The notes under the pieces: generated by a model
Seen by the model: only the letters and a program-made list of their open reading frames with translations
Told to the model about the DNA's origin: nothing
The model's database searches: none
Shown: positions 1 through 26,320 of the stretch, in pieces
Position numbering within the stretch: the first letter of the stretch is position 1
Layout of the letters: the number at the start of each line of letters is the position of its first letter
Program-made: the position numbers and the translations under genes
Source of the DNA: Bacteroidota bacterium
GTDB lineage: Bacteria; Bacteroidota; Bacteroidia; Bacteroidales; Paludibacteraceae
Direction: 5' to 3'
Assembly (NCBI GenBank): GCA_030706465.1
Contig: JAUZOM010000015.1
Span: 1-38,772 of the forward strand
Length of the DNA stretch: 38,772 nucleotides

Positions 1-168
1 AGGGTTCGGATAGGTATACCTATCCGAACCCTAACTGAACCCTAACCAAACCCTAACTGAACCCTATCTGAACCCTATCTGAAGTTCCTTAATACAAAGA
101 CCTGATTATGGCGAAGAAAGGAATTCGTTGAACCGCTGTTTAGACGAAACTGTAACCTGAATTAAAGA
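1..168 (-). repeat. Dispersed repeat copy A: palindrome plus 11-bp tandem array and flank (cut by window edge)
   Basis: Positions 1-32 are a perfect 32-bp palindrome centred on GGTATACC. About five 11-bp units of the type CCCTAACTGAA follow to about position 84. The flank at 85-168 matches, in reverse complement, the flank of copy B at 25961-26047, including shared blocks such as CGTTGAAC and AACCTGAATTAAA. The other half of the element would lie left of the window. No protein is encoded in it. This is seen directly; what the element does is unknown. Confidence 0.8.
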
Positions 169-389
169 AAGGACTTACAGATAACTTGACAAAGAAGAGT
201 TTGCGGGCTGTTCAACAGATGAACTTTATGGGGCACTTACCCGAAAGGGGAAGCTGGCAATCATAAATCTGATTTCATTGACTTTTACTGGTAGAATTAC
301 AGATCTTCCACCACTTGTCAGGCAAAGCCGACAAATGAAACGACAGCATCAACTTCGTTCTTAAATTATACAACTTAAGAAAAAATTTG
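169..389. other. Gene-free stretch upstream of the TPR regulator
   Basis: I see no convincing coding region, tRNA or terminator here. Homology to the flank of repeat copy B fades near position 168. The first recognisable signal is the promoter at 390. A short reading frame on the minus strand at 275-517 has no family features and runs into the regulator gene, so it is not called. Confidence 0.5.
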
Positions 390-397
390 TACTTTTG
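390..397 (+). promoter_or_regulatory. Bacteroidota -7 promoter element (TACTTTTG)
   Basis: TACTTTTG fits the TAnnTTTG consensus and lies 18 bases before the ATG at 416. No clear TTTG -33 box is present at the right distance. The element overlaps the TTG that could extend the downstream gene, which argues that ATG 416 is the true start. Confidence 0.5.
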
Positions 398-415
398 TTC
401 AACAAATTTTGTAAA

Positions 416-2056
416 ATGTTTAGCCGCCCTTATTCCCGTTTCTGGTTGTACTTCCTTCTGTGTATTTCCTTCCTCGGTTGTTCTGCAGTGCCAACCGGAT
501 TGAAAACGGCAGAGCAACTTATGGAGAAAGCTCCTGACTCAGCTTTACATATCTTACAACATATTAATCCCCATAAACTATATACTCCATCCAATAAAGC
601 ATTGTATGCACTTTTGATGAGCCAGGCTTTGGATCGAAACGATATTAAGTTAGAGTCCGATTCCATCATCACGCCCGCCACGGATTATTACACCGAAAAG
701 GAACCTGAACGTGCCGGCTATGCCTGGTTTTATCATGCACGCACTGCCGGGAACCGGGGAAATGCCAATGAACAAGCCAATAATTTGTTGAAAGCCCAGG
801 CATTTGCCCAGCTTACAGAAAATTATAAATTACGGGGACTAATTTATTTCGATAAAGCTAAAATGTATGAGTCGCAAAAGCAGTTTGACAGTATGATCCA
901 TTATAACAAGCTGTCATTTCGTTCATTTCAACTTTCGAACAGTCCCCAAAATAGCGTTGTCAGTTTGATAAATCTCGGGGTTGGTTTCTTGCATGATTCC
1001 AGGCCCGACAGTGCTATCCGGTATTACACTTCAGCTGGGAAACTGGCTTCAATGCTTCATGACACACTATTGATATCCACAGTCGACAAAAGTTTAGGAT
1101 CGGCATATTATCATCAAAGCCTGTACATGGAAGCCCTGAATTATTATAGACTGGCTCCTTTAACCCATATTGGGATGTATGATTCGAATAAATGGTACCT
1201 GATGGCAGAAGCCTACAATCAAACCGGTAAATTGGATTCAGCACGAATCATGCTGAAACGGATTAAGAATACTTATGAGTTTGCTCCTCAATATTACAAG
1301 CTTTGGCAAACTATTTACGAAAAGGAAGGTAACCTGAAAGAAGCGTTAAATACTTCAATTAAAATTACCCAGGTAAAAGATTCTTTAAACGATCGGAAGC
1401 TGGCTATCAGTTTTGCCGGGTTGGATAAAAAATATAAATACCAGGGTTTGCAACTGGAGAATCAACGGCTGGTAATTAATAACAAGCAGCGAGGATTGTT
1501 TCTGCTATTCACCCTGTTTGTATTAAGTATGCTTGTGGTTGCTGTTTTGATTTGGAGGTTAAACACTAAAAAGAAACAGTTTGATGTACAAAATGAATTA
1601 CTGGCAAAAGAAAAGGCTTTTGTTGAAATAGAAAAAGATAAGGTAGAAAAGGAAAAGGAAAACAGCACCTTGCTGGAGAAACAATTGAAATTACAAGCAA
1701 TACTGCTCTTAAACATTGAACAACACAGGAAAAACGTCTTTAAACAACCCGGTATCTGGAAAAATGAATCTGAAGAAATGCAACCGGCACAAAACAATAC
1801 TTTCCACAAAGAACTAATTGCTTGTATGGACCTGGAGTATCCGGATATTTCACTCCGTTTAATAAAAAAGTTTCCGACACTCTCCAAGCGTGACATCTTG
1901 ATTTGTTGTTTGCTTTTAGCGGGTTTCGACACGGGCATGATAGCCACCATCCTGGATGTTAAACTTGAATCCATAACTAAGCACCGGTACCGCCTTCGCT
2001 TAAAGCTCCAACTACAAAATTCCGATAATCTGGTCGACTACCTGCGACAATTTTAA
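416..2056 (+). CDS. TPR-repeat membrane protein with C-terminal LuxR-like helix-turn-helix
   Basis: A 546-residue protein of a type common in Bacteroidota: an exported TPR sensor joined across the membrane to a cytoplasmic DNA-binding tail. Residues 1-22 form a signal sequence ending in SFLGC, a possible lipobox with Cys22. Residues from about 25 to 345 are helical with TPR-like pairs. A hydrophobic segment near residue 360 (LFLLFTLFVLSMLVV) spans the membrane, and a charged coiled coil (KEKAFVEIEKDKVEKEKE) follows. The last 45 residues (LSKRDILICCLLLAG, then IATILDVKLESITKHRYRL) resemble the LuxR recognition helices. An in-frame TTG at 395 lies inside the promoter, so ATG 416 is chosen. Target genes are unknown. 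The remnant peptide genes downstream could once have been partners. Confidence 0.75.
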   Translation: MFSRPYSRFWLYFLLCISFLGCSAVPTGLKTAEQLMEKAPDSALHILQHINPHKLYTPSNKALYALLMSQALDRNDIKLESDSIITPATDYYTEKEPERAGYAWFYHARTAGNRGNANEQANNLLKAQAFAQLTENYKLRGLIYFDKAKMYESQKQFDSMIHYNKLSFRSFQLSNSPQNSVVSLINLGVGFLHDSRPDSAIRYYTSAGKLASMLHDTLLISTVDKSLGSAYYHQSLYMEALNYYRLAPLTHIGMYDSNKWYLMAEAYNQTGKLDSARIMLKRIKNTYEFAPQYYKLWQTIYEKEGNLKEALNTSIKITQVKDSLNDRKLAISFAGLDKKYKYQGLQLENQRLVINNKQRGLFLLFTLFVLSMLVVAVLIWRLNTKKKQFDVQNELLAKEKAFVEIEKDKVEKEKENSTLLEKQLKLQAILLLNIEQHRKNVFKQPGIWKNESEEMQPAQNNTFHKELIACMDLEYPDISLRLIKKFPTLSKRDILICCLLLAGFDTGMIATILDVKLESITKHRYRLRLKLQLQNSDNLVDYLRQF

Positions 2057-2254
2057 GTATATTCTTCCATTATTTATTCCGGATTTAACTATGTCCATAT
2101 ACGTCTGTTTTCAGCCGGTAATAAATGTCTATATTTCAAAACATTACTATTTATTATTTTTCACCTTGTCCATAAAATAAATCCAGTATTTTCCACCGAT
2201 ATTGAATTTATTTTATATTTATTTGCAAAACAAACAATTCAAAAAAATACTGTC

Positions 2255-2539
2255 GTGAAAAAAGATTTATTCTCTCAAAAATTCAGCGTACTGGTTAGCC
2301 TGTTGGGTTTTTCAGATACGCATTCAGTTGTAGGTACACAACCCATTAAAAAAGATGATCCTCCCGTTATAGTACCACCCGCTAAATAGCATGGAGAGTA
2401 ACCCGAATCAGGAGAAGCGATACTTAATTTTGAATTAAGCAATTCAAATCAACCTGAAAATAGGACAGAACCTATAACTAAACCAAAACAACATGTTTTA
2501 AGCGGTATAGTCAATTGGGGTGTAGTGAACCTAGAATAA
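2255..2539 (+). pseudogene. Remnant of a small secreted protein with two in-frame stops
   Basis: From GTG 2255 a short signal-like peptide can be read: MKKDLFSQKFSVLVSLLGF, then a proline-rich stretch KKDDPPVIVPPAK. It stops at TAG 2387, and a second stop follows at TAA 2399. The same frame then continues for 45 protein-like codons (GEAILNFELSNSNQPENRTE...) to TAA 2539. This suggests a decayed gene of about 90 codons, although the first 44 codons alone could be a genuine peptide. The family is not recognised with certainty. Small secreted proteins of similar design (for example DUF3244 types) often lie beside TPR-LuxR regulators in Bacteroidales. Confidence 0.35.
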
Positions 2540-2616
2540 TTTGTCTATTTAACCTAAACGAATAATTTAAAACCAAGACAAATCCAATCCGTAATTTTGT
2601 ATTGACTGTACCGCTT
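2500..2616. repeat. 117-bp element bounded by 16-bp inverted repeats
   Basis: AAGCGGTATAGTCAAT at 2500-2515 and ATTGACTGTACCGCTT at 2601-2616 are complementary at 15 of 16 positions, and the exception is a G.T-type pair. An inner pair (ATTTGTCT near 2541, AGACAAAT near 2577) nests inside. The element could be a MITE-like insertion or a folded RNA. A TAATTTTG promoter-like box lies just inside the right arm. Confidence 0.5.
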
Positions 2617-2721
2617 TTATTCAAAAGCAGAAAGATATATCTGTGTTTACAAAGAGTCTTCCGTCTTTTCTGTCATGTTGGTTTTATACAAACCTGATTA
2701 AAAAGGCGAATAAGGAGATTT

Positions 2722-2756
2722 GAAGGTGGGATTTATAAAAATTCCACCTTTTTTTA
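2722..2756 (+). terminator. Rho-independent terminator
   Basis: AAGGTGG (2722-2728) pairs with CCACCTT (2743-2749) and runs into a T-rich tract. It ends a plus-strand transcript, although no intact gene lies just upstream. It may be a relic of the remnant gene at 2255 or serve a non-coding RNA. Confidence 0.7.
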
Positions 2757-3058
2757 TTTTTCACACGGCTTATTCCTGTTTAGCCTATATCCATACTCCT
2801 TATTTTGATTACCCACTCTCTCAATTTACTCTCTAAAAAACAGGAAATCCATTATCTTAACTGATTTCAATAATATACAACTCTACAAAGAAAGTATCCA
2901 GCCGAAATTACAAAGCTGATATGTCCGTTTTTTTATACTCTATTTTATAAAATAGCATTACTTTTGTCATTTATTTTAAGAAATTGTTGAAGAACTTATA
3001 AGTAACCTGCAACACCTCGCTATAAAGCAATTCATAGACTATATCCGATAAGGACAAC

Positions 3059-3136
3059 ATGATGCCTCCTCCCCTTTCTAACGAAAGTACAGGAGACAAA
3101 ACTTTCGATTTATCAGGCATCAAACAAGTTCTATAA
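3059..3136. other. Nested inverted repeat containing a 25-codon reading frame
   Basis: Outer arms TGATGCCT (3060-3067) and AGGCATCA (3115-3122) enclose inner arms CGAAAGT (3082-3088) and ACTTTCG (3101-3107). On the plus strand, ATG 3059 opens a 25-codon frame that includes NESTGDKTFDLSG and follows an AAGGA. On the minus strand the same DNA reads GGGGAGGAGG six bases before an ATG. Function, and which strand matters, are undetermined. Confidence 0.3.
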
Positions 3137-3157
3137 CCGATATAATACCATTCGATC

Positions 3158-3577
3158 GTGGATAAGAGTATATTTATGAATAAGCAGGTTATTCCCACAC
3201 ACAATGACCTGGCAGGCGCATTAGCCGACACCTGCGATTTGTGGCAACGAATCGTTGATTACGTGCATTTAAAATATCCGGCTGCCGTTGATGAATGGAA
3301 TTATTCTGGGGCCAACTACGGTTGGAGCTTCCGGACAAAAGATAAAAAGCGCGCCATCATATACCTGTTGCCTAGGGACGGGTACTTCAAGGCTGCCTTT
3401 GTTTTCGGGCAAAAAGCAACCGACAGGATACTGGAGAGCCAGGTTTCGGAGGCCATTAAATCGGAGCTTAATTCGGCAAGGATCTACGCAGAAGGACGCG
3501 GCATCAGGATTGAGATAACCGATAAAACGGTTATCAAGGATATTAAGGCATTAATTGACATTAAAATTGCCAATTGA
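3158..3577 (+). CDS. DUF3788 family protein
   Basis: A 139-residue cytoplasmic protein without signal peptide or membrane segment. The central block YGWSFRTKDKKRAIIYLLPR, then DGYFKAAFVFGQKATDRIL, and the later AEGRGIRIEI are the recognisable core of DUF3788, a small uncharacterised family of the YdhG/DUF1801-like type. The length agrees with the family. The GTG start at 3158 gives the family-like opening xKSIFxxKxxxPT; ATG 3176 is the alternative. No promoter box or Shine-Dalgarno is clear. It stands alone between decayed sequences. Its codons look richer in G and C than the surrounding DNA, which fits an intact gene in a decayed neighbourhood. Biochemical role unknown. Confidence 0.85.
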   Translation: MDKSIFMNKQVIPTHNDLAGALADTCDLWQRIVDYVHLKYPAAVDEWNYSGANYGWSFRTKDKKRAIIYLLPRDGYFKAAFVFGQKATDRILESQVSEAIKSELNSARIYAEGRGIRIEITDKTVIKDIKALIDIKIAN

Positions 3578-3612
3578 ACAACAAAAGCTGTTTTCATCCG
3601 TCGCATGGATAG

Positions 3613-3882
3613 ATCATTCCTGAAAATGAGAAAATAATCCTACTTGAGGCTGGGGCTTACTCTTTAACTGTCTTTAGTTTCCAAAATATCATTTTCGTGA
3701 ATAATCGAAGTAACCGGAAAGGAAATATCTATCTTTATAATACAAACCGGCGGCTGATTCAAGAATTTCAGTTTGATGCGAAAGTTATCACTACATTACC
3801 GGTGCGACTTCCGGCAGGCACCTACTTATTAAAAGCGTTTACACTATCCTATGAGCCCACCACCAAACTGGTTATCAGATGA
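3613..3882 (+). pseudogene. Remnant of a secreted-protein C-terminal beta domain (T9SS-type or DUF3244-like)
   Basis: An open frame without a convincing start runs from 3613, just after a stop, to TGA 3882. The text IILLEAGAYSLTVF, then GNIYLYNTNRRLIQEF and LPVRLPAGTYLLKAF, resembles the C-terminal sorting/beta-sandwich domains of Bacteroidota secreted proteins (a G-x-IxLYN turn and LPAGTYLLK near the end). A GTG at 3697 would give only 61 residues. It reads best as the surviving 3' end of a lost gene, possibly the same kind as the remnant at 2255. The family assignment is a judgement from motif shape. Confidence 0.45.
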
Positions 3883-4456
3883 TCTTAATTCGCATTAACC
3901 ACCAGGGGTCAATCCTTTTTGTTACTATTATAAAACATTAGTATTTGTTTTTCAACCAAATCCGGTTTCAACATGTTTTAATAAAAAATTATACCGTGTG
4001 TTTCCTAAATTGATTTTTATATGTTACGGTTTTCCCAAACAACGGTTCAACAAGTTCCGCACTGGCATTCGTTTTTAGTATAGAGGAACTTCAGAGAGGG
4101 CTCCGATTCCGCTCTATACCTAAAATAGAAGTCAGGCAAGATCCGTTGGTTGGGAATGAGTAAAATGAGCAAAAACAAATGAACAAGATCAGAACACTTT
4201 TATTCTTTTGCCGGAATTAATCCAGGGTTTATGAATTGAGATCGTTTAAATAAAAATTTGAACGTTGATTACCGCCGGGTTATGCCCATATTCGTATTTA
4301 TTATCAAGGCTTTAAAGTACAGGCTATTCCGTTAGGTCGGGATGGTTCATCCGCGTATCACGTTTCATTTACTTCACCAAAATATACTAAAATATTCATC
4401 AACTTGGCCTGTTAAACTTGACCCATAAATTTTTCAATTAAGAAAAAGAAAAAAAT
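3883..4456. other. Gene-free stretch upstream of rpsU
   Basis: Contains repeat copy C (4021-4275). A stretch open from 4269 to the stop at 4415 reads GYAHIRIYYQGFKVQAI and so on, protein-like but without a start codon, probably another remnant. No intact gene is seen on either strand. Confidence 0.5.
4021..4275 (+). repeat. Dispersed repeat copy C (short core)
   Basis: Same orientation as copy B. Matching blocks include GGTTCAAC near 4043, CATTCGTTTTTAGTAT near 4066 and AGGAACTTCAGAGAGGG at 4084-4100. After the core, TATACCTAAA, GGGAATGAGTAAA and TTTGCC match the right flank of copy B. The tandem core is reduced to about one 11-bp unit enclosed by TATAGAG ... CTCTATA arms. The left flank also matches copy A (ACAACGGTTCAACAAGTTCC here, ACAGCGGTTCAACGAATTCC there). 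Confidence 0.65.
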
Positions 4457-4488
4457 ATTGGATAATTCAAAATGATTATCTATCTTTG
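4457..4488 (+). promoter_or_regulatory. Promoter of the rpsU operon
   Basis: ATTG (4457-4460), a 20-base spacer, then TATCTTTG (4481-4488) match the Bacteroidota TTTG-N19-21-TAnnTTTG consensus well. The predicted leader before the ATG at 4537 is about 40 bases, AT-rich, and has no Shine-Dalgarno. Confidence 0.75.
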
Positions 4489-4536
4489 CAGTCCGATTTT
4501 GAAAACAGAAACAAACACATTAAATAATTAATAATT

Positions 4537-4728
4537 ATGATCGTAGTCCCAGTAAAAGAAGGCGAGAACATCGAAAGAGCATTAAAAAAATTCAAACGTA
4601 AATTTGAAAAAACAGGCGTAGTCAAAGAACTTCGTCGCCGTCAATGTTTTGACAAACCTTCTATTGTAAAACGCGACGATAAAATGCACGCGATTTACGT
4701 TCAAAAGAAAAATCTTAGCGAAGAATAG
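4537..4728 (+). CDS. rpsU: Small ribosomal subunit protein bS21
   Basis: A 63-residue basic protein with the bS21 opening MIVVPVKEGENIERALKKFK and the RRRQCFDKPS centre. It binds the 30S platform. In studied Bacteroidota ribosomes bS21, with bS18 and bS6, helps sequester the 16S anti-Shine-Dalgarno tail (established for Flavobacterium). Flavobacterial rpsU has a strong Shine-Dalgarno used for autoregulation. Here the 20 bases before the ATG are only A and T, so that device is absent in front of rpsU. It heads the conserved Bacteroidales run rpsU-xerC-hpf. Confidence 0.97.
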   Translation: MIVVPVKEGENIERALKKFKRKFEKTGVVKELRRRQCFDKPSIVKRDDKMHAIYVQKKNLSEE

Positions 4729-4739
4729 TAAATAATCGG

Positions 4740-4758
4740 CAGGAAGCTTGTTTTCCTG
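4740..4758 (+). terminator. Weak hairpin after rpsU
   Basis: CAGGAA (4740-4745) pairs with TTCCTG (4753-4758), followed by an AT-rich stretch ATTTATTTAT. It may be a partial terminator that sets a high rpsU to xerC ratio. There is no proper T tract. Confidence 0.35.
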
Positions 4759-4800
4759 ATTTATTTATCCTATTTTCGTTGCAGATTTGAACATACGGTT

Positions 4801-5682
4801 ATGATGAACGAATTTCTGCAATATTTACAGTATGAGAAGAATTATTCTTCTCATACTGTTTTGTCATACCATACCGATCTATTACAGTTCTGCCATTTCC
4901 TGAATATCTCTCCCGACAAATTCGAACCGGCAACGGTTGATTCGCAGCAAATCCAACAATGGGTGTTATCCCTCATGAATGAAAAAATTTCTGCCCGAAG
5001 TCTATCCCGTAAAATATCAACTCTTAAATCATTCTGGCGCTTTTTACTTACACGTGGATATACGAAGCTAAATCCAACGTTAAAAATCATTTTGCCTAAA
5101 ACAAAGAAACCGCTTCCTGCGTTTTTTAAGGAGAATGAGATGAACAACGCACTGGAAAATTCCTTTATACCCAATAGTTTTGAGTCGGTACGAAACCAAT
5201 TAATACTGAAACTATTTTATATAACAGGCATTCGGCTTTCCGAGCTTATCAATCTAAAGGACACCAATGTGGACCTGGTAGAAGGCAGTATAAGAGTTAC
5301 CGGGAAACGAAACAAACAACGAGTTATTCCATTTGACACTTCATTTTCGAGTGATATAGAGCGCTATATCAGTTTAAGAGACAAGGAGGTTTCGGTTATT
5401 GAATCCTACTTATTTTTACGAAAAAACGGATTAAAAATGTATCCAAAAATGGTATACAACCTGGTACATACATCCATGTCGGAAGTAAGCAGTTTACATA
5501 AAAGAAGCCCACATGTCCTGCGACATACATTTGCCACCAGTTTATTAAATGGGGGAGCCGACATTAATGCGGTAAAAGAATTACTGGGTCATAGTAGCCT
5601 GGCTGCAACGCAGGTATATACCCATACAAGTTTCGAAGAATTATATACTATATACAAACAAGCCCATCCAAGGGCAAAATAA
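4801..5682 (+). CDS. xerC: Tyrosine recombinase XerC/XerD-like
   Basis: A 293-residue site-specific recombinase, expected to act at dif to resolve chromosome dimers. The N-terminal SAM-like DNA-binding domain spans about residues 1-85, the catalytic domain about 105-290. All catalytic residues are present: Arg145 (TGIRLSEL), Lys169 (TGKRNKQR), His238 and Arg241 (SPHVLRHTFAT), His264 (LLGHSSL) and the nucleophile Tyr273 (QVYTHTS). The length is typical of Xer proteins. The gene lies between rpsU and hpf, a conserved Bacteroidales order. Start ATG 4801; ATG 4804 is an equal alternative. Codons 9-20 form a perfect inverted repeat, listed separately. Whether it acts as XerC or XerD cannot be told from this window. 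Confidence 0.93.
   Translation: MMNEFLQYLQYEKNYSSHTVLSYHTDLLQFCHFLNISPDKFEPATVDSQQIQQWVLSLMNEKISARSLSRKISTLKSFWRFLLTRGYTKLNPTLKIILPKTKKPLPAFFKENEMNNALENSFIPNSFESVRNQLILKLFYITGIRLSELINLKDTNVDLVEGSIRVTGKRNKQRVIPFDTSFSSDIERYISLRDKEVSVIESYLFLRKNGLKMYPKMVYNLVHTSMSEVSSLHKRSPHVLRHTFATSLLNGGADINAVKELLGHSSLAATQVYTHTSFEELYTIYKQAHPRAK
4827..4859. repeat. 16-bp perfect inverted repeat inside the start of xerC
   Basis: ACAGTATGAGAAGAAT at 4827-4842 and its exact complement at 4844-4859 are separated by one base. In mRNA the inner pairs would open into a small loop, leaving a strong hairpin about 26 bases after the start codon. It encodes residues 9-20 (QYEKNYSSHT region), which are family-typical, so the repeat coexists with coding constraint. 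Confidence 0.9.
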
Positions 5683-5686
5683 AAAA

Positions 5687-5693
5687 AAGGAGG
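5687..5693 (+). promoter_or_regulatory. Strong Shine-Dalgarno before hpf
   Basis: AAGGAGG lies five bases before ATG 5699 and four bases after the xerC stop. It is the only plus-strand start in the window with such an extended match to the anti-Shine-Dalgarno. The adjacent starts (rpsU, tuf, secE, ribosomal proteins) have AT-rich leaders instead. Confidence 0.85.
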
Positions 5694-5698
5694 CAATT

Positions 5699-5998
5699 AT
5701 GAAACTACGGATTCAATCCATCAATTTTGATGCAACTACCACACTGGAATCTTACATTAATAAAAAATCGTTGAAATTAGAAAAGTTTTTTGATGAGATA
5801 CTGAATTTTGAAGTGTATTTAAAGGTGGTTAAACCCGAAACAATTACGAACAAAGAGGCTGAGATTAAAGTTTCAATACCAAATGTTGATTTTTTTGCTT
5901 CCAAAACATGTGATTCTTTTGAAGAGGCGGTCGACCTAACTCTCGATGCGGTAGAGAAACAAATGCGCAAATACAAAGAAAAAAGCAGTAAAAATTAA
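5699..5998 (+). CDS. hpf: Ribosome hibernation promoting factor (short HPF/RaiA type)
   Basis: A 99-residue protein of the short HPF/YfiA family, which binds the 30S decoding region and stabilises inactive 70S or 100S particles in slow growth. It opens MKLRIQSINFDATTTLESYI, the family beta-strand and helix. The conserved IPNVDFFASKTCDSFEEAVD block follows, and a lysine-rich end (MRKYKEKSSKN). The C-terminal dimerisation domain of long HPF is absent. It begins 16 bases after xerC with a strong Shine-Dalgarno, which is unusual for this phylum. It is the third gene of the rpsU operon and is followed by a hairpin at 6047. Confidence 0.93.
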   Translation: MKLRIQSINFDATTTLESYINKKSLKLEKFFDEILNFEVYLKVVKPETITNKEAEIKVSIPNVDFFASKTCDSFEEAVDLTLDAVEKQMRKYKEKSSKN

Positions 5999-6015
5999 AA
6001 TAATGCAGGAAATGT

Positions 6016-6045
6016 TTTGTAGTCCAAAATATATTCGTACATTTG
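6016..6045 (+). promoter_or_regulatory. Promoter of the tRNA-tuf operon
   Basis: TTTG (6016-6019), 18 bases, TACATTTG (6038-6045). The predicted start falls near 6051, at the beginning of the hairpin at 6047-6078, so the transcript would start inside a stem-loop. Confidence 0.6.
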
Positions 6046-6046
6046 C

Positions 6047-6081
6047 AAGCCGTTTGAATAGCAGTATTTAAACGGCTTTTT
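6047..6081 (+). terminator. Terminator or leader hairpin between hpf and the tRNA cluster
   Basis: AAGCCGTTT (6047-6055) pairs with AAACGGCTT (6070-6078), followed by a run of T to 6081. It can end the rpsU-xerC-hpf transcript. It also lies exactly where transcripts from the promoter at 6016-6045 would begin. Confidence 0.65.
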
Positions 6082-6112
6082 CTACGGTAAAAACCTTAAG
6101 AAATAGCGCTTT

Positions 6113-6186
6113 GCCTCTTTAGCTCAGTTGGCCAGAGCACGTGATTTGTAATCTCGGGGTCGTTGGTTCGAATCCGACAAGAGGCT
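6113..6186 (+). tRNA. tRNA-Thr (anticodon TGT)
   Basis: Acceptor arms GCCTCTT and AAGAGGC with discriminator T. D arm GCTC...GAGC, anticodon loop TTTGTAA, T loop GGTTCGAATCC. One T.T mismatch is seen in the anticodon stem. CCA is not encoded. It is the first of a four-tRNA cluster read with tuf. Confidence 0.95.
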
Positions 6187-6224
6187 CAACGATCTTTGTT
6201 TTAATGTATCGAATAGGAAAAAAG

Positions 6225-6307
6225 GGGCAGTTACCAAAGTGGCCAACTGGGGCTGACTGTAACTCAGCTGTCTTTCGACTTCGGAGGTTCGAATCCTTCA
6301 CTGCCCA
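6225..6307 (+). tRNA. tRNA-Tyr (anticodon GTA)
   Basis: Acceptor arms GGGCAGT and ACTGCCC, anticodon stem GCTGA/TCAGC with loop CTGTAAC, and a long variable arm, as expected of tyrosine tRNA. 83 bases. Confidence 0.96.
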
Positions 6308-6375
6308 CTTTACCAATTCCTAATTATTAATGCATTATGCATATTAATGGTGAATTAATAATCAGGAATTGTATT

Positions 6376-6448
6376 GCGGAAGTAGCTCAGTCGATAGAGC
6401 ATTAGCCTTCCAAGCTGAGGGTCGCGGGTTTGAGTCCCGTCTTCCGCT
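6376..6448 (+). tRNA. tRNA-Gly (anticodon TCC)
   Basis: Acceptor arms GCGGAAG and CTTCCGC, anticodon loop CTTCCAA between TTAGC and GCTGA, T loop GGTTTGAGTCC. 73 bases. Confidence 0.95.
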
Positions 6449-6456
6449 CCATTCTT

Positions 6457-6528
<72 letters not shown>

Positions 6529-6587
6529 CAACTTTGTAGCTTTTATAAAACATATTAAATTACTAACAAAAAAATAATCTTTGAGTT

Positions 6588-7775: not shown

Positions 7776-7800
7776 GAATTAGATTTTAACTATACAATAA

Positions 7801-7828
7801 AGTCGTTTCCAGTAAAATGGAAACGACT
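7801..7828 (+). terminator. Hairpin between tuf and trnW
   Basis: AGTCGTTTCC (7801-7810) pairs perfectly with GGAAACGACT (7819-7828) over an eight-base loop. No T tract follows and tRNA-Trp starts six bases later. It may be a processing site or partial terminator rather than a full stop. Confidence 0.6.
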
Positions 7829-7834
7829 GAATAC

Positions 7835-7907
7835 ACGGGCGTAGCTCAGTTGGTAGAGCACTGGTCTCCAAAACCAGGTGTCGGGAGTTCGAGCCTCTCT
7901 GCCCGTG
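7835..7907 (+). tRNA. tRNA-Trp (anticodon CCA)
   Basis: Acceptor arms ACGGGCG and TGCCCGT with discriminator G, anticodon stem CTGGT/ACCAG with loop CTCCAAA, T loop AGTTCGAGCCT. It sits between tuf and secE, as in many bacteria. Confidence 0.96.
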
Positions 7908-7923
7908 CAAATTCTATTTATAT

Positions 7924-8115: not shown

Positions 8116-8123
8116 TTTAATCA

Positions 8124-19208: not shown

Positions 19209-19228
19209 CTAATTTTTCAGATATTGAC

Positions 19229-19266
19229 AACGAGGTTGTTTTCTTTTCGAAGGCAACCTCGTTTTT
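19229..19266 (+). terminator. Terminator after rpoC
   Basis: AACGAGGTTG (19229-19238) pairs exactly with CAACCTCGTT (19254-19263), followed by a T run. It ends the rpoBC transcript 20 bases after the rpoC stop. Confidence 0.9.
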
Positions 19267-19306
19267 GTGATGTTAAGTTTTGGTTCACTCAAAAAAAGAC
19301 TGTATC

Positions 19307-19337
19307 TTAGTACGATTTTTTGTAAGCCCTAATTTTG
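19307..19337 (+). promoter_or_regulatory. Promoter of the manC-mutL unit
   Basis: TAATTTTG (19330-19337) matches TAnnTTTG. TTAG at 19307-19310, with a 19-base spacer, is a partial -33 match. The ATG follows 22 bases after the element. Confidence 0.6.
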
Positions 19338-19358
19338 AAACTCTAACCATTCATTAAA

Positions 19359-20432
19359 ATGAAACATAATTATTGTATTATTATGGCAGGTGGCGTTGGT
19401 AGCCGCTTTTGGCCATTCAGTAGAAATGACCGTCCTAAACAGTTTCTTGATTTTTTTGGAACCGGTCGGTCACTTTTACAAATGACTTTTGATCGTGTCA
19501 GACATTTAGTGCCCACAGAAAATATCCTAATCGTATCAAACATTATTTATAAAGATTTAATTCTGGAACAACTACCTGAAATTAAACCTGATCAGGTTTT
19601 GTTGGAACCTAACCGGCGAAATACGGCACCTTGTATTGCCTATGCCATAAATCGTATCAAAGCTGTTACCGATAAAGCTAACATTATAGTTGCACCTTCT
19701 GATCACCTAATTTTAAAAGAGACCGATTTTCTTGAAACTATAAAAATTGGACTTGATTTTGTTGAGAAAAACGATTGTCTTCTGACATTAGGGATTAAAC
19801 CTAGCCGTCCAGAGACAGGGTATGGCTATATTCAAATCGATGAAGGTGAAACGAACCTTCGGAGAGTTAAAACTTTCACCGAAAAACCAAATGCGGAATT
19901 AGCTAAAGTCTTTTTTGAAACAGGAGAATTCTTTTGGAACTCCGGTATTTTCCTTTGGAATCTGCAGACTATTGATAAAGCATTCAATGATTTATTACCA
20001 GAAGTATCGAACAAGTTTAAAGCTGGTAAAGAATTCTTCAATACAAAAGAAGAGCAGGAATTTATTGATGAGATGTATCCCTCCTGCCCTAACATATCTA
20101 TCGACTACGGTATCATGGAAAAAGCATCCGATGTCTATGTACTCTGTTCTGATTTTGGATGGACCGATCTGGGGACTTGGGGGTCTTTATATGAAATGTC
20201 GCCCAAAGATGAGCATCAAAATGTAACCTTAAAATGCAAAACCGCCTTCTATGAAAGTGAAGAGAATATTATTGTCCTTCCTTCCGACAAGCTTGCAGTG
20301 ATTCAAGATTTAGAGGGATATATTGTTGCAGAATCGGATAATGTACTGCTCATTTGCAAACGTGAAAATGAACAACGCATTCGTCAGTTTGTTAATGATG
20401 TCAATGTGAAATTTGATGGGAAATATAACTGA
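19359..20432 (+). CDS. manC: Mannose-1-phosphate guanylyltransferase
   Basis: A 357-residue nucleotidyltransferase that makes GDP-mannose from GTP and mannose 1-phosphate, for O-glycans, capsule or lipopolysaccharide. The family signature is GGVGSRFWPFSRNDRPKQFL at residues about 11-30. EPNRRNTAPCIAYA, APSDHL and the FWNSGIFLWN block follow. It lacks the C-terminal phosphomannose isomerase cupin of longer ManC/AlgA proteins, the usual Bacteroidota form. The mutL ATG follows 12 bases after its stop, so the two probably share a transcript. Confidence 0.93.
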   Translation: MKHNYCIIMAGGVGSRFWPFSRNDRPKQFLDFFGTGRSLLQMTFDRVRHLVPTENILIVSNIIYKDLILEQLPEIKPDQVLLEPNRRNTAPCIAYAINRIKAVTDKANIIVAPSDHLILKETDFLETIKIGLDFVEKNDCLLTLGIKPSRPETGYGYIQIDEGETNLRRVKTFTEKPNAELAKVFFETGEFFWNSGIFLWNLQTIDKAFNDLLPEVSNKFKAGKEFFNTKEEQEFIDEMYPSCPNISIDYGIMEKASDVYVLCSDFGWTDLGTWGSLYEMSPKDEHQNVTLKCKTAFYESEENIIVLPSDKLAVIQDLEGYIVAESDNVLLICKRENEQRIRQFVNDVNVKFDGKYN

Positions 20433-20444
20433 TTACTGATAAGC

Positions 20445-22292
20445 ATGAGTGATATTATTCATCTTTTACCCGATTCAGTGGCCAATCAAATTGCGGCCGG
20501 TGAAGTGATTCAACGCCCTGCATCGGTTTTAAAAGAATTGGTTGAGAATTCAATTGATGCGGGAGCTACCTTTATTCAGATTGTGATTAAAGATGCCGGT
20601 CGTACATTGATACAAGTGGTTGATAATGGGAAAGGAATGAGTGAGACTGATGCCAGGATGGCATTTGAGCGGCATGCAACTTCGAAGATAGAAAACGCAG
20701 ACGATTTGTTTTCACTACGCACAATGGGTTTCCGTGGAGAGGCATTGGCCTCTATTGCTGCTGTTGCCCAGGTGGAATTAAGGACCCGTCGTTCAGAGGA
20801 TGAATTGGGAATACTGGTAGAAATAGCCGGTACAAGGGTGTTCAAACAGGAAACGGTTCAATGCGATTTAGGGACTTCGTTCCAAGTGAAAAATCTTTTC
20901 TTTAACGTTCCGGCACGACGTCGCTTTCTAAAAAGTGATAATGTAGAGAAAAGTCATATTTTAACTGAATTTTATCGTGTCGCCCTGGTAAACTCCAATA
21001 TTGCTTTTTCCCTTTTTGATGGTGACGAGGAAATTTTTCAACTACCCGCCTCCAATAATAAAATTAGAATTGAGAATATCTTTGGGAAGAATGTAAAAAA
21101 GCGTTGGCAACAACAACTGCTTACCATAGAGACTTCAACAAATATCGCCAACATTCACGGTTATGTTGGCAAGCCGGAATACGCTCAGAAATCTGGTAGT
21201 CAGTATTTCTTTGTCAATGGTCGATACATGCGTCATCCCTATTTTCACAAAGCCGTATTGCTGGCCTACAATCAAATGATCCAGGCGTCTGAAAGTCCTA
21301 ACTATTTTATTTATTTAGAAGTCGATCCTCAAACCATCGATATAAACATACATCCCACCAAGACAGAAATAAAGTTCGAAAATGAACAAGCTATTTGGTC
21401 TATTCTTTCTGCAACAGTAAAAGAAGCATTAGGAAAATTCAATGTAGTCCCGTCAATCGATTTTGATCAGGAAGGGGCCGTAGATATGCCGACAGGAATA
21501 CCTATTGAAAACATACGCCCACCACAAACGAACTTTAATCCAAATTATAATCCATTTGGTACAACGAATTACAAACGTCCTGCTTTAAACTGGGAAGATC
21601 TTTATGGAGAATTTGAAAAGAAGAACGATCCTGTTGAATCTTCAGCAACAGGACAGACTAATTTTGAACCGCCTGCCACCATCTCAGTCGACACATCATT
21701 TGGACAACAACAAGAAATTGATAATATTGAGTTACGTGCTGAGAATTTCCAATATAAAAACCGGTATATTCTTACAGGGATTAAATCCGGGCTTTTAATG
21801 ATTGACCAGCACCGGGCACATACCCGTGTTTTATTTGATCAGTTTTTAATTCAAATTGAAAATTCTAAAGGTATATCCCAGCAAGTTTTATTTCCCGAAA
21901 TTTTGGAATTAAGTGTTGATGATATGCTGCTATTTGAACAAATTATGCCTGACCTGCAACACGTCGGTTTTGAATTTGAGATATTGAATAATAACTCTTT
22001 AAAAGTAATAGGTGTTTCTGCTCAAGTTGGGACTTCCAGTGTTCTCGATTTGATTCTTGATATTCTTGAGAATGCAAAAAAAACAGCTGCAGATCCTACC
22101 ACTCACTTGAAAGAGTCCATTTCACTTTCCATGGCCGAATATGCCTCTCTGAAAGCCGGGCAGCATCTGACCAACGAAGAGATGTCCGATCTGATTGACC
22201 GACTTTTTGCCTGTGCCAATCATAATTTTACACCCGATGGGAAAAAGATTATGACACTTCTTTCATTAGATGAACTGGAAAAAAGGTTTTGA
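20445..22292 (+). CDS. mutL: DNA mismatch repair protein MutL
   Basis: A 615-residue MutL that couples MutS mismatch recognition to strand removal. The N-terminal GHKL ATPase is complete: ELVENSIDAGAT, VDNGKGMS, FERHATSKI and TMGFRGEALASIAAV. A variable linker (about 340-430) leads to the C-terminal dimerisation domain. There the nuclease motif expected as DQHA-x2-E-x4-E reads DQHRAHTRVLFD at 454-465, with Thr460 and Asp465 in place of the glutamates. The later CANHNFTPDGKK (from Cys590) is retained. Whether the protein nicks DNA is therefore uncertain. mutS lies 14 kb downstream on the other strand. Confidence 0.97.
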   Translation: MSDIIHLLPDSVANQIAAGEVIQRPASVLKELVENSIDAGATFIQIVIKDAGRTLIQVVDNGKGMSETDARMAFERHATSKIENADDLFSLRTMGFRGEALASIAAVAQVELRTRRSEDELGILVEIAGTRVFKQETVQCDLGTSFQVKNLFFNVPARRRFLKSDNVEKSHILTEFYRVALVNSNIAFSLFDGDEEIFQLPASNNKIRIENIFGKNVKKRWQQQLLTIETSTNIANIHGYVGKPEYAQKSGSQYFFVNGRYMRHPYFHKAVLLAYNQMIQASESPNYFIYLEVDPQTIDINIHPTKTEIKFENEQAIWSILSATVKEALGKFNVVPSIDFDQEGAVDMPTGIPIENIRPPQTNFNPNYNPFGTTNYKRPALNWEDLYGEFEKKNDPVESSATGQTNFEPPATISVDTSFGQQQEIDNIELRAENFQYKNRYILTGIKSGLLMIDQHRAHTRVLFDQFLIQIENSKGISQQVLFPEILELSVDDMLLFEQIMPDLQHVGFEFEILNNNSLKVIGVSAQVGTSSVLDLILDILENAKKTAADPTTHLKESISLSMAEYASLKAGQHLTNEEMSDLIDRLFACANHNFTPDGKKIMTLLSLDELEKRF

Positions 22293-22535
22293 GATAGACT
22301 AACTGTTGACAATAAGATTAAACACCTTGTTTTAAGTAATTTCTTTATCTGAGCCGGTTTGAACGGTGCACCTTGTCCTGATTAAAAAAAATCCGGCTTA
22401 TGAAATGAGAATTTTATATGTTCTCAATCCATTAACATATATAATAGGACACTACTAAACTCTGTTTGTCTCATATTAAAATCCATGGTAACACAGGATA
22501 GTATTATTTACCAGCAAAAGAAACATCCCTTTTTA

Positions 22536-23189
22536 ATGAAAAACCTTCTTATTTTTGATCTCGACGGCACATTGTTGAATACCGTTGCCGATCTGGCTGA
22601 AAGCACAAACTACGCCCTGCGTCTATGCGGATTCCCTACTCACGAAGCTGAAGCCTATAAATTCTTTGTTGGAAATGGGATCAACAAACTTTTTGAACGC
22701 GCATTACCTGTAGGAGAGAAAACCCAGGAGAATATTTTAAAAATTCGACATTTTTTTCTTGAATTCTACGGGACACACAATACGGAGCTAACGGTTCCTT
22801 ATCCGGGAATTCCTGCGTTACTACAAAAACTGCAGAGTGAAGGGGTGAAACTTGCTGTTGCTTCCAATAAATATCAAAAAGGGACAGAAGAACTCATTCA
22901 ACATTTTTTCCCGGAAATTAAATTCGTCGCAGTATTTGGTCAGCGTGAGAATGTCCCTTCGAAACCCGATCCAACGATTGTTCACGACATCTTAACTGTA
23001 GCAAAAGTAGAGAAGCAACATGTCCTTTACATTGGCGATTCTGGTGTTGATATGCAAACAGCGCGGAACAGCGGGATAGATGCTGCCGGTGTTACCTGGG
23101 GGTTCCGACCACGCTCTGAAATGGAAGAGTTTTCACCAAAATATCTGGTGGAGAATCCTTCTGAAATTCTTTCAATCGTATTTAAATAA
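22536..23189 (+). CDS. HAD-superfamily phosphatase (phosphoglycolate phosphatase-like)
   Basis: A 217-residue haloacid dehalogenase hydrolase. Motif I FDLDGTLLNT has the nucleophile Asp8 and the acid Asp10. Motif II is ASNK, and motifs III/IV are SKPDP and YIGDSGVDMQTA. The alpha-helical C1 cap (FVGNGINKLFERAL) matches Gph-type enzymes, so 2-phosphoglycolate or a similar sugar phosphate is the likely substrate. ATG 22536 starts at the usual MKNLLIFDLDGT; an ATG at 22485 would add 17 unrelated residues. It follows mutL after about 240 bases with no promoter box that I could find. A bidirectional terminator ends it. Confidence 0.88.
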   Translation: MKNLLIFDLDGTLLNTVADLAESTNYALRLCGFPTHEAEAYKFFVGNGINKLFERALPVGEKTQENILKIRHFFLEFYGTHNTELTVPYPGIPALLQKLQSEGVKLAVASNKYQKGTEELIQHFFPEIKFVAVFGQRENVPSKPDPTIVHDILTVAKVEKQHVLYIGDSGVDMQTARNSGIDAAGVTWGFRPRSEMEEFSPKYLVENPSEILSIVFK

Positions 23190-23217
23190 AAAAACCGCCT
23201 GATTAGGCGGTTTTTTT
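23187..23217. terminator. Bidirectional terminator between the HAD gene and rprY
   Basis: ACCGCCT and AGGCGGT enclose GATT, with a run of A before and a run of T after, so it works on both strands. It overlaps the last bases of the HAD gene and lies 17 bases from the end of rprY. Confidence 0.95.
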
Positions 23218-23234
23218 ATTTAGCCATAAATAGA

Positions 23235-23942
23235 TTAGTCTTCTTTTACCTGTGGAGTAATCAATTTGTAACCTTTACCATGGATATTGATAATAGCTAC
23301 GTTTTGATCATCTTTCAGTAATTTGCGCAATTTAGTGATATACACATCCATGCTACGAGCATTGAAATAATTGTCATCAACCCAAATTGTTTTTAAGGCA
23401 AAATTTCTTTCTAAAATATTATTAGCATTTGCAGCAAGTAAATTCAGCAATTCTGATTCTTTAGTTGTAAGTTTCTTTGATTCTCCTTCAAAAGTAAGCA
23501 TTTGTTTTTGGGCATCAAAGGTAAATCCACCAATTTGGTAAAGAACAACGTCTTTCGCGCGTTTACCTTTTACCCGGCGTAAAATAGATTCAATACGATA
23601 TAACAATTCTTCCATGCTGAATGGTTTAGACAAATAATCGTCAGCACCTAATTTGAAACCCTGCAAAATATCTTCTTTCATTGATTTTGCTGTCAAGAAT
23701 ATAATAGGCACTTCCGAATTCAAAGCACGTACATCGGCAGCCAAAGCAAATCCGTCCTTTTTAGGCATCATCACATCAAATACACACAAGTCGTATTTGT
23801 TACGTGAAAAAGCTTTATAACCGGCTTCGCCATCGGGTTGCAAATCTGCATCGTACCCTTTAGTTTGCAAATACTCTCTGAGAAGCATGCCAAGATTTTC
23901 ATCATCTTCGCATAACAAAATTTTTACTTTTTCGTCAGTCAT
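23235..23942 (-). CDS. rprY: OmpR-family response regulator RprY
   Basis: A 235-residue two-component regulator. The receiver domain (1-120) has the acidic pair Asp13/Asp14, the phosphoacceptor Asp56 (VFDVMMPKKDG), Thr84 and Lys86 (FLTAKS). The C-terminal winged helix (about 135-230) contains LTTKESELLNLLA and the recognition stretch NARSMDVYITKLRKLL. The pattern is that of Bacteroides RprY, associated with oxidative and envelope-stress genes. Its start overlaps the rprX stop by four bases, so the pair is translationally coupled. Confidence 0.93.
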   Translation of the reverse strand: MTDEKVKILLCEDDENLGMLLREYLQTKGYDADLQPDGEAGYKAFSRNKYDLCVFDVMMPKKDGFALAADVRALNSEVPIIFLTAKSMKEDILQGFKLGADDYLSKPFSMEELLYRIESILRRVKGKRAKDVVLYQIGGFTFDAQKQMLTFEGESKKLTTKESELLNLLAANANNILERNFALKTIWVDDNYFNARSMDVYITKLRKLLKDDQNVAIINIHGKGYKLITPQVKED

Positions 23943-25477
23943 AATTCGTAATTTTTTAAAGTTGGTATTGTAATAGTGAATTTAGTTCCGATATTTATTT
24001 CGCTCTCTACTTTTATAGATCCCTTGTGTTCTGAAACTATCTTTTTCACGTATGCTAGTCCTAGCCCAAAACCCTTAACATTGTGTAGGTTACCGGTCGA
24101 TACGCGATAAAACTTTTCAAAGATACGTTTCACATCCTCTTTACTTATGCCAATGCCATTGTCCTCTATACTAATGAGCAAATTATCTTTCTCATTCCAG
24201 GTTTCTATTGTCAACAACAAGGGCTTATCCGAATATTTAAGGGCATTATCCATTAAATTAAATATTACATTCGTAAAATGGACTTCATCGACTAACGCCA
24301 GGTCGTTGGTTGCACTGAGTTTTGAGGTAATCTTACCGCCTTTACTGGTAACTTTAAGCGAAAAGTTACTTATAATATCCGAAATAAGCGAGTTGATACT
24401 GATTTCATTTAATTTTAATATCGATTTATCTTTTTCGAAGATAGCCATTTGCAACACTTTCTCTACCTGAAGACTTAATCGTTTTGTTTCATCCCGAATA
24501 ACATGGGAAATATGTTTAAGCGTTTCGGGGGTTTTTCCAACACCCGGATCCTGCAACATCTGTGAAGCTAACGAAATGGTTGATATCGGAGTTTTTAATT
24601 CATGTGTCATGTTATTAACAAAATCGTTTTTCATATTGTTCAGTTGCTTTTGTCTGAATATGATAATAATAGCTCCGATAAATATACATAAAATGAGCAC
24701 CACAAGAGCTATAGAAGGCAAAAATAAATTCATGGAACTTAAAATATAATTTTGCTTCGTCGGAAAAATAACTTGTAGATAAGCTGTCTTATTCGATTCT
24801 TCTAACGGAAAAAGTTTCTGGATGTAAGTGTTATTTTGGATGTTTGAAGCATTCACCGGAATGTCTTTATGACATTTATAAATAATCTTCCCCTGTTTAT
24901 CTACAATAGAATAGAAGAAAGGCAATTTAATGCCATTGTTGGTAAACACTTTTTCCAATATTCCGTTAAGTTCTTCAAAGTTCACCCGCTCACTGATATC
25001 TTTCTCGTCTATTTCCTTCATCCATCTAAAGACGGCCTGATCTAGGATCGTTTTAGAGCGGGAGAAATTTTGTTTGAATTTTTCCTGTAAATATCGTGAG
25101 GTTTCTTCAATGGTTGCTTTACCATGTGGCGTTGATAAGCGAATCCCGGGACGATTGAGTTGATCCGAAGTTAATTTTAGATTTTCGGCCATACTATCGA
25201 TGTTATTTTTCAATCGCAGATTTTGGGCATCCATGCTCAAGAGTTTATTTTTACTCCCGGAATAATCAACTCCTTCCAAAGTTTGTCCAAGATATTCAAG
25301 GGCTTCATTTTCCTCAACTAAACTTACCGTTTGAAATAAACTTCGTTGTACATTATCATTAAACTGGTTTTCTACCATCTCGGCATTTACCCGCACGTAC
25401 CTTGCTTGTACGACAATAAGTCCTACAAAGGTCAAAATCATAAAAGCCATGAGTATCCAGATAGTTGTTCGCTTCAT
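23939..25477 (-). CDS. rprX: Sensor histidine kinase RprX
   Basis: A 512-residue membrane kinase partnered with RprY. TM1 is at about 5-25 and TM2 at about 250-275, enclosing a 225-residue periplasmic sensor domain without a family I can name. The H box NNMTHELKTPISTISLASQM places the phosphorylated His at 292. The ATPase motifs are present: NLMDNALKYS (N box), IEDNGIGIS (G1) and GFGLGLAYVK (G2). No HAMP domain is evident between TM2 and the H box. A promoter-like element lies only a few bases before the start codon. Confidence 0.93.
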   Translation of the reverse strand: MKRTTIWILMAFMILTFVGLIVVQARYVRVNAEMVENQFNDNVQRSLFQTVSLVEENEALEYLGQTLEGVDYSGSKNKLLSMDAQNLRLKNNIDSMAENLKLTSDQLNRPGIRLSTPHGKATIEETSRYLQEKFKQNFSRSKTILDQAVFRWMKEIDEKDISERVNFEELNGILEKVFTNNGIKLPFFYSIVDKQGKIIYKCHKDIPVNASNIQNNTYIQKLFPLEESNKTAYLQVIFPTKQNYILSSMNLFLPSIALVVLILCIFIGAIIIIFRQKQLNNMKNDFVNNMTHELKTPISTISLASQMLQDPGVGKTPETLKHISHVIRDETKRLSLQVEKVLQMAIFEKDKSILKLNEISINSLISDIISNFSLKVTSKGGKITSKLSATNDLALVDEVHFTNVIFNLMDNALKYSDKPLLLTIETWNEKDNLLISIEDNGIGISKEDVKRIFEKFYRVSTGNLHNVKGFGLGLAYVKKIVSEHKGSIKVESEINIGTKFTITIPTLKNYEL

Positions 25478-25484
25478 AACAGCA

Positions 25485-25503
25485 CAAATTTACATCAAAA
25501 TTA
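25485..25503 (-). promoter_or_regulatory. Two overlapping -7 elements of rprXY
   Basis: On the minus strand TAATTTTG (25503-25496) and TAAATTTG (25492-25485) both match TAnnTTTG and lie 18 and 7 bases before the rprX ATG. The nearer one would give an almost leaderless mRNA. No clear -33 TTTG is present, which suits an activated promoter. Confidence 0.5.
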
Positions 25504-25960
25504 AATGTTAATTGTATATTTAACTATGTTTAACGTGGAACGTTTTATAAAAATATATTTTATTATGAATTGTTTAACGTTAAAATTAATCGTTTCTAAA
25601 CAAGCTTTGATAAATTAAGCGTTAAATGGTTTATTATCGGATGCTTTTTATTTAAAAGAAACATAATCGATCTGCTTAACATCTTAACAAATAAAGGTTT
25701 CATCAGTTTACGAACTAATGTATTTTTATTTAAACAAATTAAAATGAATATAGTTGCCGCCCCATTTAATATCTGGATAATTCGAGAAACAATGTTTCGT
25801 CTTAGCCGATAGTTGCTCAAAATTCTTTGTTCTTACGCTTCAGGCAACAGTTAATGACCCTTTCGCAATTCAAGCCTTTTATCATTCAACGAAACACCCA
25901 CTCTACTTACGGGTTAGAAAACACGCAAACAATTCATTTATAGTAAATTAACATACACTG
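25504..25960. other. AT-rich gene-free stretch upstream of rprX
   Basis: The motif GTTTAACGT occurs near 25528 and again at 25572. The second is part of the palindrome TTTAACGTTAAA (25573-25584), and GCGTTAAA follows near 25620. These could be operator sites for rprXY. A 74-codon minus-strand frame at 25596-25820 has no protein features and is not called. From 25961 repeat copy B begins. Confidence 0.45.
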
Positions 25961-26320
25961 CTTTTAATTCAGGTTGCCTCTTCGCCTGAACAGAAGTTCA
26001 ACGGATTCCTTCCGCCATTCATTCTTACTATGAAGGGACTTTAGTTAGGGTTCGGATAGGGTTCGGTTAGGGTTCAGTTAGGGTTCAGTTAGGGTTCAGT
26101 TAGGGTTCAGTTAGGTATAGCTATCCAAACCCTATCCGAACCTTATCTGAATTCTTTCCGATACCACTTTATACCTAAACTGGATATACTATTGGATTAG
26201 GATAAGTAAAGAAAACCAGGACAAGAAAAATAATACCGGAATGCCTCCATTTTCTTGCCAAAATCAATTCAGAGCTCAGGACTCAAGGCCGTTTAGGTTT
26301 TATACGTTGTGCTTACGTTT
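25961..26320 (+). repeat. Dispersed repeat copy B: flank, six 11-bp units, imperfect palindrome, inverted units, flank
   Basis: The left flank at 25961-26047 matches copies A (inverted) and C. Six tandem 11-bp units (GGGTTCGGATA, GGGTTCGGTTA, then four GGGTTCAGTTA) fill 26048-26113. A near-palindrome GGTATAGCTATCC (26114-26126) leads into inverted units AAACCCTATCC and GAACCTTATCTGA. The right flank from about 26156 to 26320 again matches copy C (for example TATACCTAAA, GATAAGTAAA, CTTGCC, CGTTTA). The element is non-coding. Confidence 0.8.

Follow-up and report, generated by a model that had tools for sequence, protein, structure and literature searches.

BrickBuilt is a non-coding miniature inverted-repeat transposable element (MITE) of Porphyromonas gingivalis, which is present in 19 copies in ATCC 33277 and carries 23-nt direct-repeat units (Klein et al. 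2015, PMC4596501). The repeat described here was found on a stretch of 38,772 bp, called the window in the following, which is contig JAUZOM010000015.1 (C57) in the 4.34 Mb draft genome of a Bacteroidota bacterium of the Paludibacteraceae (GCA_030706465.1, 337 contigs, here G000). A first-pass annotation of the window had described three loci, copies A, B and C, as a dispersed repeat with an 11-bp tandem core around a palindrome. BrickBuilt is the one bacterial MITE with an internal minisatellite known to us. The foldback elements FB, Galileo and Tm1 are eukaryotic, much longer, use Mutator- or P-type transposases and have no fixed 11-bp step, and the repetitive extragenic palindromic (REP) units of bacteria are described as 20-40 bp long with a GTAG/CGTC tag. 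The three loci of the window are in all likelihood copies of a short, non-coding, MITE-like mobile family with an internal head-to-head 11-bp minisatellite around an 8-bp centre. The family has terminal repeats and is dispersed, its subfamily B inserts at TA with a 2-bp duplication, its unit number varies, neighbouring units of the long arm resemble each other, and some copies lack the core.

The coordinates and anatomy annotated for the three loci were confirmed on the sequence. Copy B (25961..26362, plus strand) is a module of subfamily A with approximate outer limits, given on the left by the end of its similarity to copy A and on the right by comparison with other copies. Its long arm (26037..26113, plus strand) consists of one diverged 11-bp step (26037-26047) and the six exact GGGTTC units that had been reported (26048-26113), followed by the palindrome centre GGTATAGC (26114..26121) and a short arm of three inverted 11-bp steps, the outer ones diverged (26122..26154, minus strand). 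Copy A (1..331, minus strand) is a subfamily-A element cut by the contig start. It is 77% identical to copy B over 1-166, its flank reaches to about 168 and its outer arm to about 330. The core occupies 1..74 on the minus strand, with one left unit, the 8-bp centre GGTATACC (13-20) and then inverted units, and it includes a perfect 32-bp palindrome at 1-32. The reported count of about five units agrees with exact GGGTTC/GAACCC marks at 2, 26, 37, 59 and 70 plus one AAACCC variant. The terminal inverted repeat of subfamily A (TTCCACCACTTGTCAGGCAAA, 306..326, minus strand) is present with 4 mismatches to the subfamily consensus, and most of the 21 match rows obtained with a 301-bp query from copy A (window 100-400, itself included) stop near 330-340. 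The core at window 1-105 is nearly identical to the core that ends contig C185, which points to a probable assembly break within a single element.

Copy C (4021..4275, plus strand), identified from the sequence and its genome matches, consists of the flanks without the 11-bp core. The single unit that had been ascribed to it could not be upheld, since GGGTT/AACCC marks occur within 4001-4300 only at 4225 and 4277, off the core position. It is still a member of the family, as copy C with its flanks matches 18 other places in G000 at E <= 0.001, the best with 81% identity over about 106 bp. The claim of shared flanks was compared with 1000 shuffles of local alignment scores and stood in most parts. 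The scores of A against B (59, best shuffle 27), A against C (45, best shuffle 34) and the right flanks of B and C (31, best shuffle 28) exceeded every shuffle, whereas the left flanks of B and C scored 18, which was equalled by 289 of 1000 shuffles and is at chance level for that comparison alone.

The repeat is abundant in its own genome. Two tandem GGGTTCNGNTA units with up to 2 mismatches were matched 338 times in G000 and the reversed control not once, and copy B as a query gave 79 match rows, including itself and in many cases both strands of one core. With these numbers, the concern that the three loci might have no further copies in the genome falls away. Among the loci extracted, records in which GGGTT-type units flank an 8-bp centre on both sides could be parsed 61 times in G000, 15 times in the congener G005 and 7 times in the congener G008. 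In G000, 59 of the 61 are distinct by sequence; the other two duplicate further records within 45 bp of the centre and are still included in the unit-likeness statistics below. The core reads as an imperfect palindrome, in which 11-bp units form two arms of unequal length around GGTNNACC. Unit numbers in G000 range from 2 to 10 in the long arm (mode 5) and from 1 to 3 in the short arm (mode 2), and the commonest centres are GGTAGACC (24) and GGTATACC (15). Beyond the GGGTT units, more 11-bp steps of other sequence follow, for example CAGTCTTATTT in subfamily B. The two-unit pattern was found in 3 of 149 genomes including G000, all three from the same genus (3 of 48).

Two subfamilies with different ends were distinguished. 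Subfamily A includes the window copies A and B and was aligned without the copies on C10, C213, C108 and C220. Its end repeat TTTGCCGGATAGGTTGTGGAA occurs at 17 places in G000 with up to 3 mismatches (control 0), and three clear elements with both ends measure 737, 561 and 286 bp, the shortest having no core. Subfamily B spans TAAGTAATTGGAAATATA to TTCCACCTACTTA, with TAAGTA..TGGAA ends common to most of the 20 loci listed. An arm of this subfamily matched 39 other places at 77-86% identity, among the 40 scored of 120 first-look candidates, and nine elements with both ends are 463-615 bp long. Two of these nine are nested in another dispersed repeat (L147, L149) at two different points. When their flanks are joined with a single TA, they align without gaps to an uninterrupted copy of the target in L235, with 37 of 41 and 60 of 77 positions identical, from which it follows that insertion of B occurs at TA and duplicates these 2 bp. 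The repeat that served as target, seen uninterrupted in L235, is also a period-11 palindromic array, but its unit is a different one, TTAGATGTTAC. No longer target duplication was seen by eye beside the nine end-complete elements. A comparison of one full B element with plasmids and phages gave no match, and five matches to the unit pattern on viral contigs had palindrome scores of at most 22/40.

The combination of terminal inverted repeats in A and B, short length, many copies and the lack of a recognised transposase gene inside is what is expected of MITEs, and a target-site duplication with a clean empty site was found for B only, in 2 of 9 elements. Translation of the 300 bp left of B cores in three frames showed frequent stops in the nine copies examined. 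Together with the dispersed copies and the two nested insertions at TA, this supports the earlier suggestion of a non-autonomous mobile repeat. Insertion at TA is typical of the IS630/Tc1-mariner superfamily and of some IS5-group elements, and the target of B therefore points to one of these, the two nested insertions having the TA target of IS630/Tc1-mariner. IS630-type DDE_3 domains were detected in five match rows on four contigs of G000, and a DDE_3 remnant on C31 (L370, 1119-1346) lies about 40 bp from a B body with a core. An IS630-like partner for the elements is likely, if weakly supported. A transposase that targets TA, most likely from the IS630 superfamily, would move the elements in trans. 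The genome also has seven Y1 (PF01797) loci, within which no full A or B element was found; one of them has two 46-bp matches at 80% identity.

The variation of the core provides information on how it changes. In the long arm, the adjacent units 1 and 2 differ by 1.39 mismatches in G000, compared with 1.84 after permutation (0 of 2000), and by 1.80 compared with 2.32 in G005 (p 0.0135). Neighbours in the short arm are also more alike than permuted ones in G005 (p 0.0045). Mirror partners at unit 1 show no excess likeness (1.80 vs 1.83 in G000, p 0.42; p 0.88 in G005), and at unit 2 an excess is present in G000 (2.25 vs 2.73, p 0.001) but absent from G005 (p 0.30). Likeness of neighbours without likeness of the unit-1 mirror partners means that copying within an arm is the main process seen. 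Array growth would thus be ordinary tandem duplication within an arm. The description of the 11-bp core as expandable is borne out by the range of unit numbers and by the likeness of long-arm neighbours. The unit-2 co-variation in G000 perhaps represents subfamily structure, and co-evolution of the arms was rejected as proof of a hairpin function since unit 1 is null in both genomes and unit 2 positive in G000 only. A cruciform-forming or protein-binding element, as had been proposed, does not follow from these comparisons. The missing core in copy C and in the 286-bp element is probably due to loss, which may have occurred by palindrome deletion.

Several observations weigh against a mobile family with this mode of growth. 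Using the A end repeat with up to 3 mismatches or the exact B end as search criterion, no intact transposase with matching ends was found in G000 among 5 DDE_3, 4 DDE_Tnp_1 and 7 Y1 loci, and the sequence beyond the C31 remnant that resembles the B right end falls short of significance (76% over 34 bp, E 0.28). A target duplication is not readable in the end-complete elements of subfamily A, and the A candidate L014 has two doubtful right ends. Some copies are hybrids by eye, with an A-type left and a B-type right flank (C304, C54, C19), and among the B copies there are some with one side truncated. Furthermore, short-arm neighbours in G000 are not more alike than permuted ones (3.1 vs 2.8 mismatches).

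Period-11 palindromes are not restricted to the GGGTT family. To compare congeners, DNA from eleven genomes was sampled, with 331 kb from G000, 400 kb from G005, 118 kb from G008 and 1.08 Mb from the other eight together (79-400 kb each), and arrays with a period-1 to period-5 character were filtered out. The G000 sample leaves out the known GGGTT carriers C10, C13, C14, C19, C23 and C24 and adds the window, and is therefore biased against that family. The G005 contigs C77 and C101 and all six G008 contigs were picked as known match carriers, which biases these samples towards arrays. With these samples, 13 period-11 arrays were found in G000, 26 in G005 and 9 in G008, compared with 1 in the other eight congeners together, and periods 10, 12 and 13 combined gave one array in the three carriers. 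In G000 and G005, 22 of 39 period-11 arrays coincide with a palindrome in which 29 or more of 40 positions pair, compared with 3 of 30 arrays of period 7, 0 of 11 of period 8 and 0 of 13 of period 9; at 600 random places in G000, G005 and G015, at most 28 of 40 positions were paired. A palindrome scan blind to arrays found 8 palindromes in G000, 11 in G005 and 5 in G008, of which 17 of 24 have period-11 arms and one has period 7, while the two palindromes of the other eight congeners are both non-periodic. Within 60 bp of the 17 period-11 palindromes, GGGTT/AACCC marks occur at least four times in nine cases, twice in three and not at all in five, and the units seen include GGGTTCAGTTA, GGGTTATCTAT, GGATTATATAT, TTAGATGTTAC, ACGATGTCGCC and ATCACTGTAAT. 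The other palindromic 11-bp arrays in G000, G005 and G008 are old and diverged and probably descend from one ancestral array that was carried on such elements. The surprising feature is the one period common to many unit sequences, which descent from one array suffices to explain without further assumptions.

At the position of copy B, G005 carries different units, in an array whose two 92-nt arms are 74% complementary. The aligned gene ends that bound this gap are 419 bp apart in G016, compared with 1,039 bp in the window. The use of this locus as an empty site at base level was rejected due to its divergence, and only the gap lengths were considered. In G015, G040 and G032, the same gap holds a methyltransferase-like sequence on the minus strand, as judged by eye. 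The G005 sample also contains intergenic arrays of 7-, 8- and 9-bp units (23, 8 and 13 in 400 kb), mostly not palindromic, with types such as GTAGTAG, AATCAACC and TTCAAACC.

The position of the copies relative to genes differs from the first description, according to which all copies precede plus-strand genes. The 51 clusters in G000 are distributed over 17 divergent, 16 co-directional and 2 convergent gaps, 15 contig edges and one predicted open reading frame (ORF). The 20 clusters in G005 comprise 6 divergent, 7 co-directional and 4 convergent ones, one at a contig edge and two over a predicted ORF. On contigs not known as GGGTT carriers, 16 of 185 gaps are divergent (6.3 of 39.5 kb, with a crude ORF caller). 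The excess of divergent gaps in G000 fits selection against insertion inside operons, and other causes are possible. With the same crude ORF call, 9 of 11 period-11 arrays in the G000 sample and 23 of 26 in the G005 sample are intergenic. A role as terminator or in the 3' untranslated region was considered and is not favoured because, among the 35 two-sided clusters of G000, 17 are divergent and 2 convergent. In the window, a tyrosine recombinase gene (Phage_integrase, E 4.2e-35) is located at 4801-5682, about 525 bp past copy C, in a block that also holds EF-Tu and rpoB. It is probably a housekeeping gene of the XerC/D type.

Beyond the genus, at least 58 stretches with three GGGTT units in an 11-bp step were found among species genomes. 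Symmetry was determined for 27 of these, leaving out those of the two congeners, and for five viral stretches, and 4 of the 32 reached at least 25/40, namely in Prolixibacteraceae (31), Sphingobacterium (28), Alistipes (25) and Microbacterium (31). In Microbacterium rhizomatis (L102, around 741), the palindrome adjoins GGGTT-like 11-bp units and looks unrelated. The unit pattern recurs in three Bacteroidota genomes, from Prolixibacteraceae, Alistipes and Sphingobacterium (control 0), with 16 matches on 8 contigs in G149, 5 on 2 in G150 and 5 on 4 in G151. An automatic palindrome test at 28/40 accepted two loci in G151, a single one in G149 and none in G150. The arrays of G149, the Prolixibacteraceae genome, have the outer unit GGGTTAAGTCA in common and enclose two different inner series, with an 11-bp step by eye. 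Mirror arrays could be regarded as a class of Bacteroidota sequences in which selection or the mode of growth maintains the 11-bp step and the mirror symmetry, whereas the unit sequence is free to change. DNA at a palindrome would then be read or built in steps of one helical turn, and mobile elements would spread the product. We consider this broader interpretation distinctly unlikely.

The constant 11-bp step could also mean that each unit is the site of a cooperatively binding protein and that the mirror layout leads to a paired or looped complex, serving chromosome organisation or as the array to which the transposase itself binds, with mobility being secondary. A precedent is parC of plasmid R1, whose 11-bp repeats are bound by ParR. 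Conservation within the unit was counted over 120 units in G000, 30 in G005 and 14 in G008, with units 2-3 taken irrespective of their sequence. In G005 and G008 it is highest at positions 1-5 and 11, giving a nearly invariant AGGGTT across the unit join, while positions 6, 7, 9 and 10 vary. As far as can be judged from sequence, this conservation would fit a binding site, although it is no proof of one; in G000, position 8 reaches the same conservation as the motif. Several unit families are without the motif, including the five of 17 period-11 palindromes that have no mark nearby, and eight congeners have no such palindromes in the DNA sampled. Protein binding as the explanation of the arrays appears unlikely. 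A G-quadruplex was set aside because several unit families have no GGG run, and integron attC sites and CRISPR-like arrays were set aside on anatomy alone, as the copies are far apart and there are no spacers.

The palindromes might instead be transcribed and act as long hairpin RNAs. After dropping palindromes that scored below 60, wobble-type mismatches were found to prevail on one strand per G000 element (larger class 411 vs 377 expected, 0 of 2000 simulations, 39 elements), and the arms of an Alistipes array (L120, about 1740-1880, also seen in L376; one copy, L120, counted) have 17 A-C and 1 G-T mismatches, which corresponds to G-U pairs on the other strand. However, the G000 copies are related and have mismatches in common, so they are not independent, and summed over the 39 elements the classes are nearly balanced (320 G-T vs 313 A-C). 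No skew is seen in the other groups (p 0.11 to 1.0), Rfam 15 at the gathering score reports only five tRNAs in the window, a search of L036, L038, L010, L083 and L086 at E 0.5 gave two sub-threshold microRNA matches, and the orientation relative to co-directional neighbours is mixed by eye, with no formal count. A function as RNA is thus very unlikely. Growth at the palindrome itself, by hairpin-dependent repair in steps of about one turn such as SbcCD-type cutting and refilling, would add new units at the centre and push older ones outward. Different inner series within a similar outer unit, seen by eye in G005 (L200, L222, L227) and G149, agree with this, and SbcCD is reported to cut a long hairpin at intervals of about 10 bp (PMC6265447). 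The reported interval is, however, 10 and not 11, the first units of the two arms are not matched beyond permutation in either genome, although mirror copying should match them, and units resemble their neighbours in the same arm instead. We give this route hardly any credence. Of these explanations, a MITE-like mobile family with tandem duplication within its arms is preferred.

Long palindromes are usually unstable in bacteria. The building and keeping of dozens of them can therefore be tested within one genus, with the eight sampled non-carrier congeners as a contrast. The arrays also break assemblies and should serve as strain-typing markers. Among the open-licence PMC papers listed by literature searches, no description of 11-bp mirror arrays came to light. 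What sets the family apart from BrickBuilt is the mirror-arranged internal array with a step of about one helical turn, several unit sequences and an occurrence in several families of one phylum.

Each of the known systems shares some of these features. Like the REP units and the bacterial interspersed mosaic elements (BIME) associated with REP-associated tyrosine transposases (RAYT, Y1), the repeat is intergenic, palindromic and multi-copy, but it has end repeats and inserts at TA, and the Y1 loci of G000 adjoin no full element. Plasmid R1 parC also has 11-bp repeats in two clusters, although these are not mirror images and belong to one plasmid locus with cognate genes. As in the eukaryotic foldback elements introduced above, the elements are mobile and their inverted arms consist partly of short tandem repeats. 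The closest resemblance in design is to BrickBuilt, which is likewise a non-coding MITE of Bacteroidales with an internal minisatellite, short terminal inverted repeats, distinct flanks, intergenic location, variable unit number and truncated copies (PMC4596501). The differences concern the units, which are 11 bp long and mirror-arranged here, whereas those of BrickBuilt are 23 nt and direct only, the string 'palindrom' being absent from the main text of that article (PMC4596501). They also concern the number of unit sequences, with one unit family in BrickBuilt (PMC4596501) and several unit sequences here, and the ends, which are TAAGTA..TGGAA and TTTGCCGGATAGGTTGTGGAA here and, by inspection of Table 2 of the same article, of the GAGACCTTTGCA type in BrickBuilt (PMC4596501). 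Since unit length, arrangement and ends differ, the window family is not a BrickBuilt element, but it looks to work alike.

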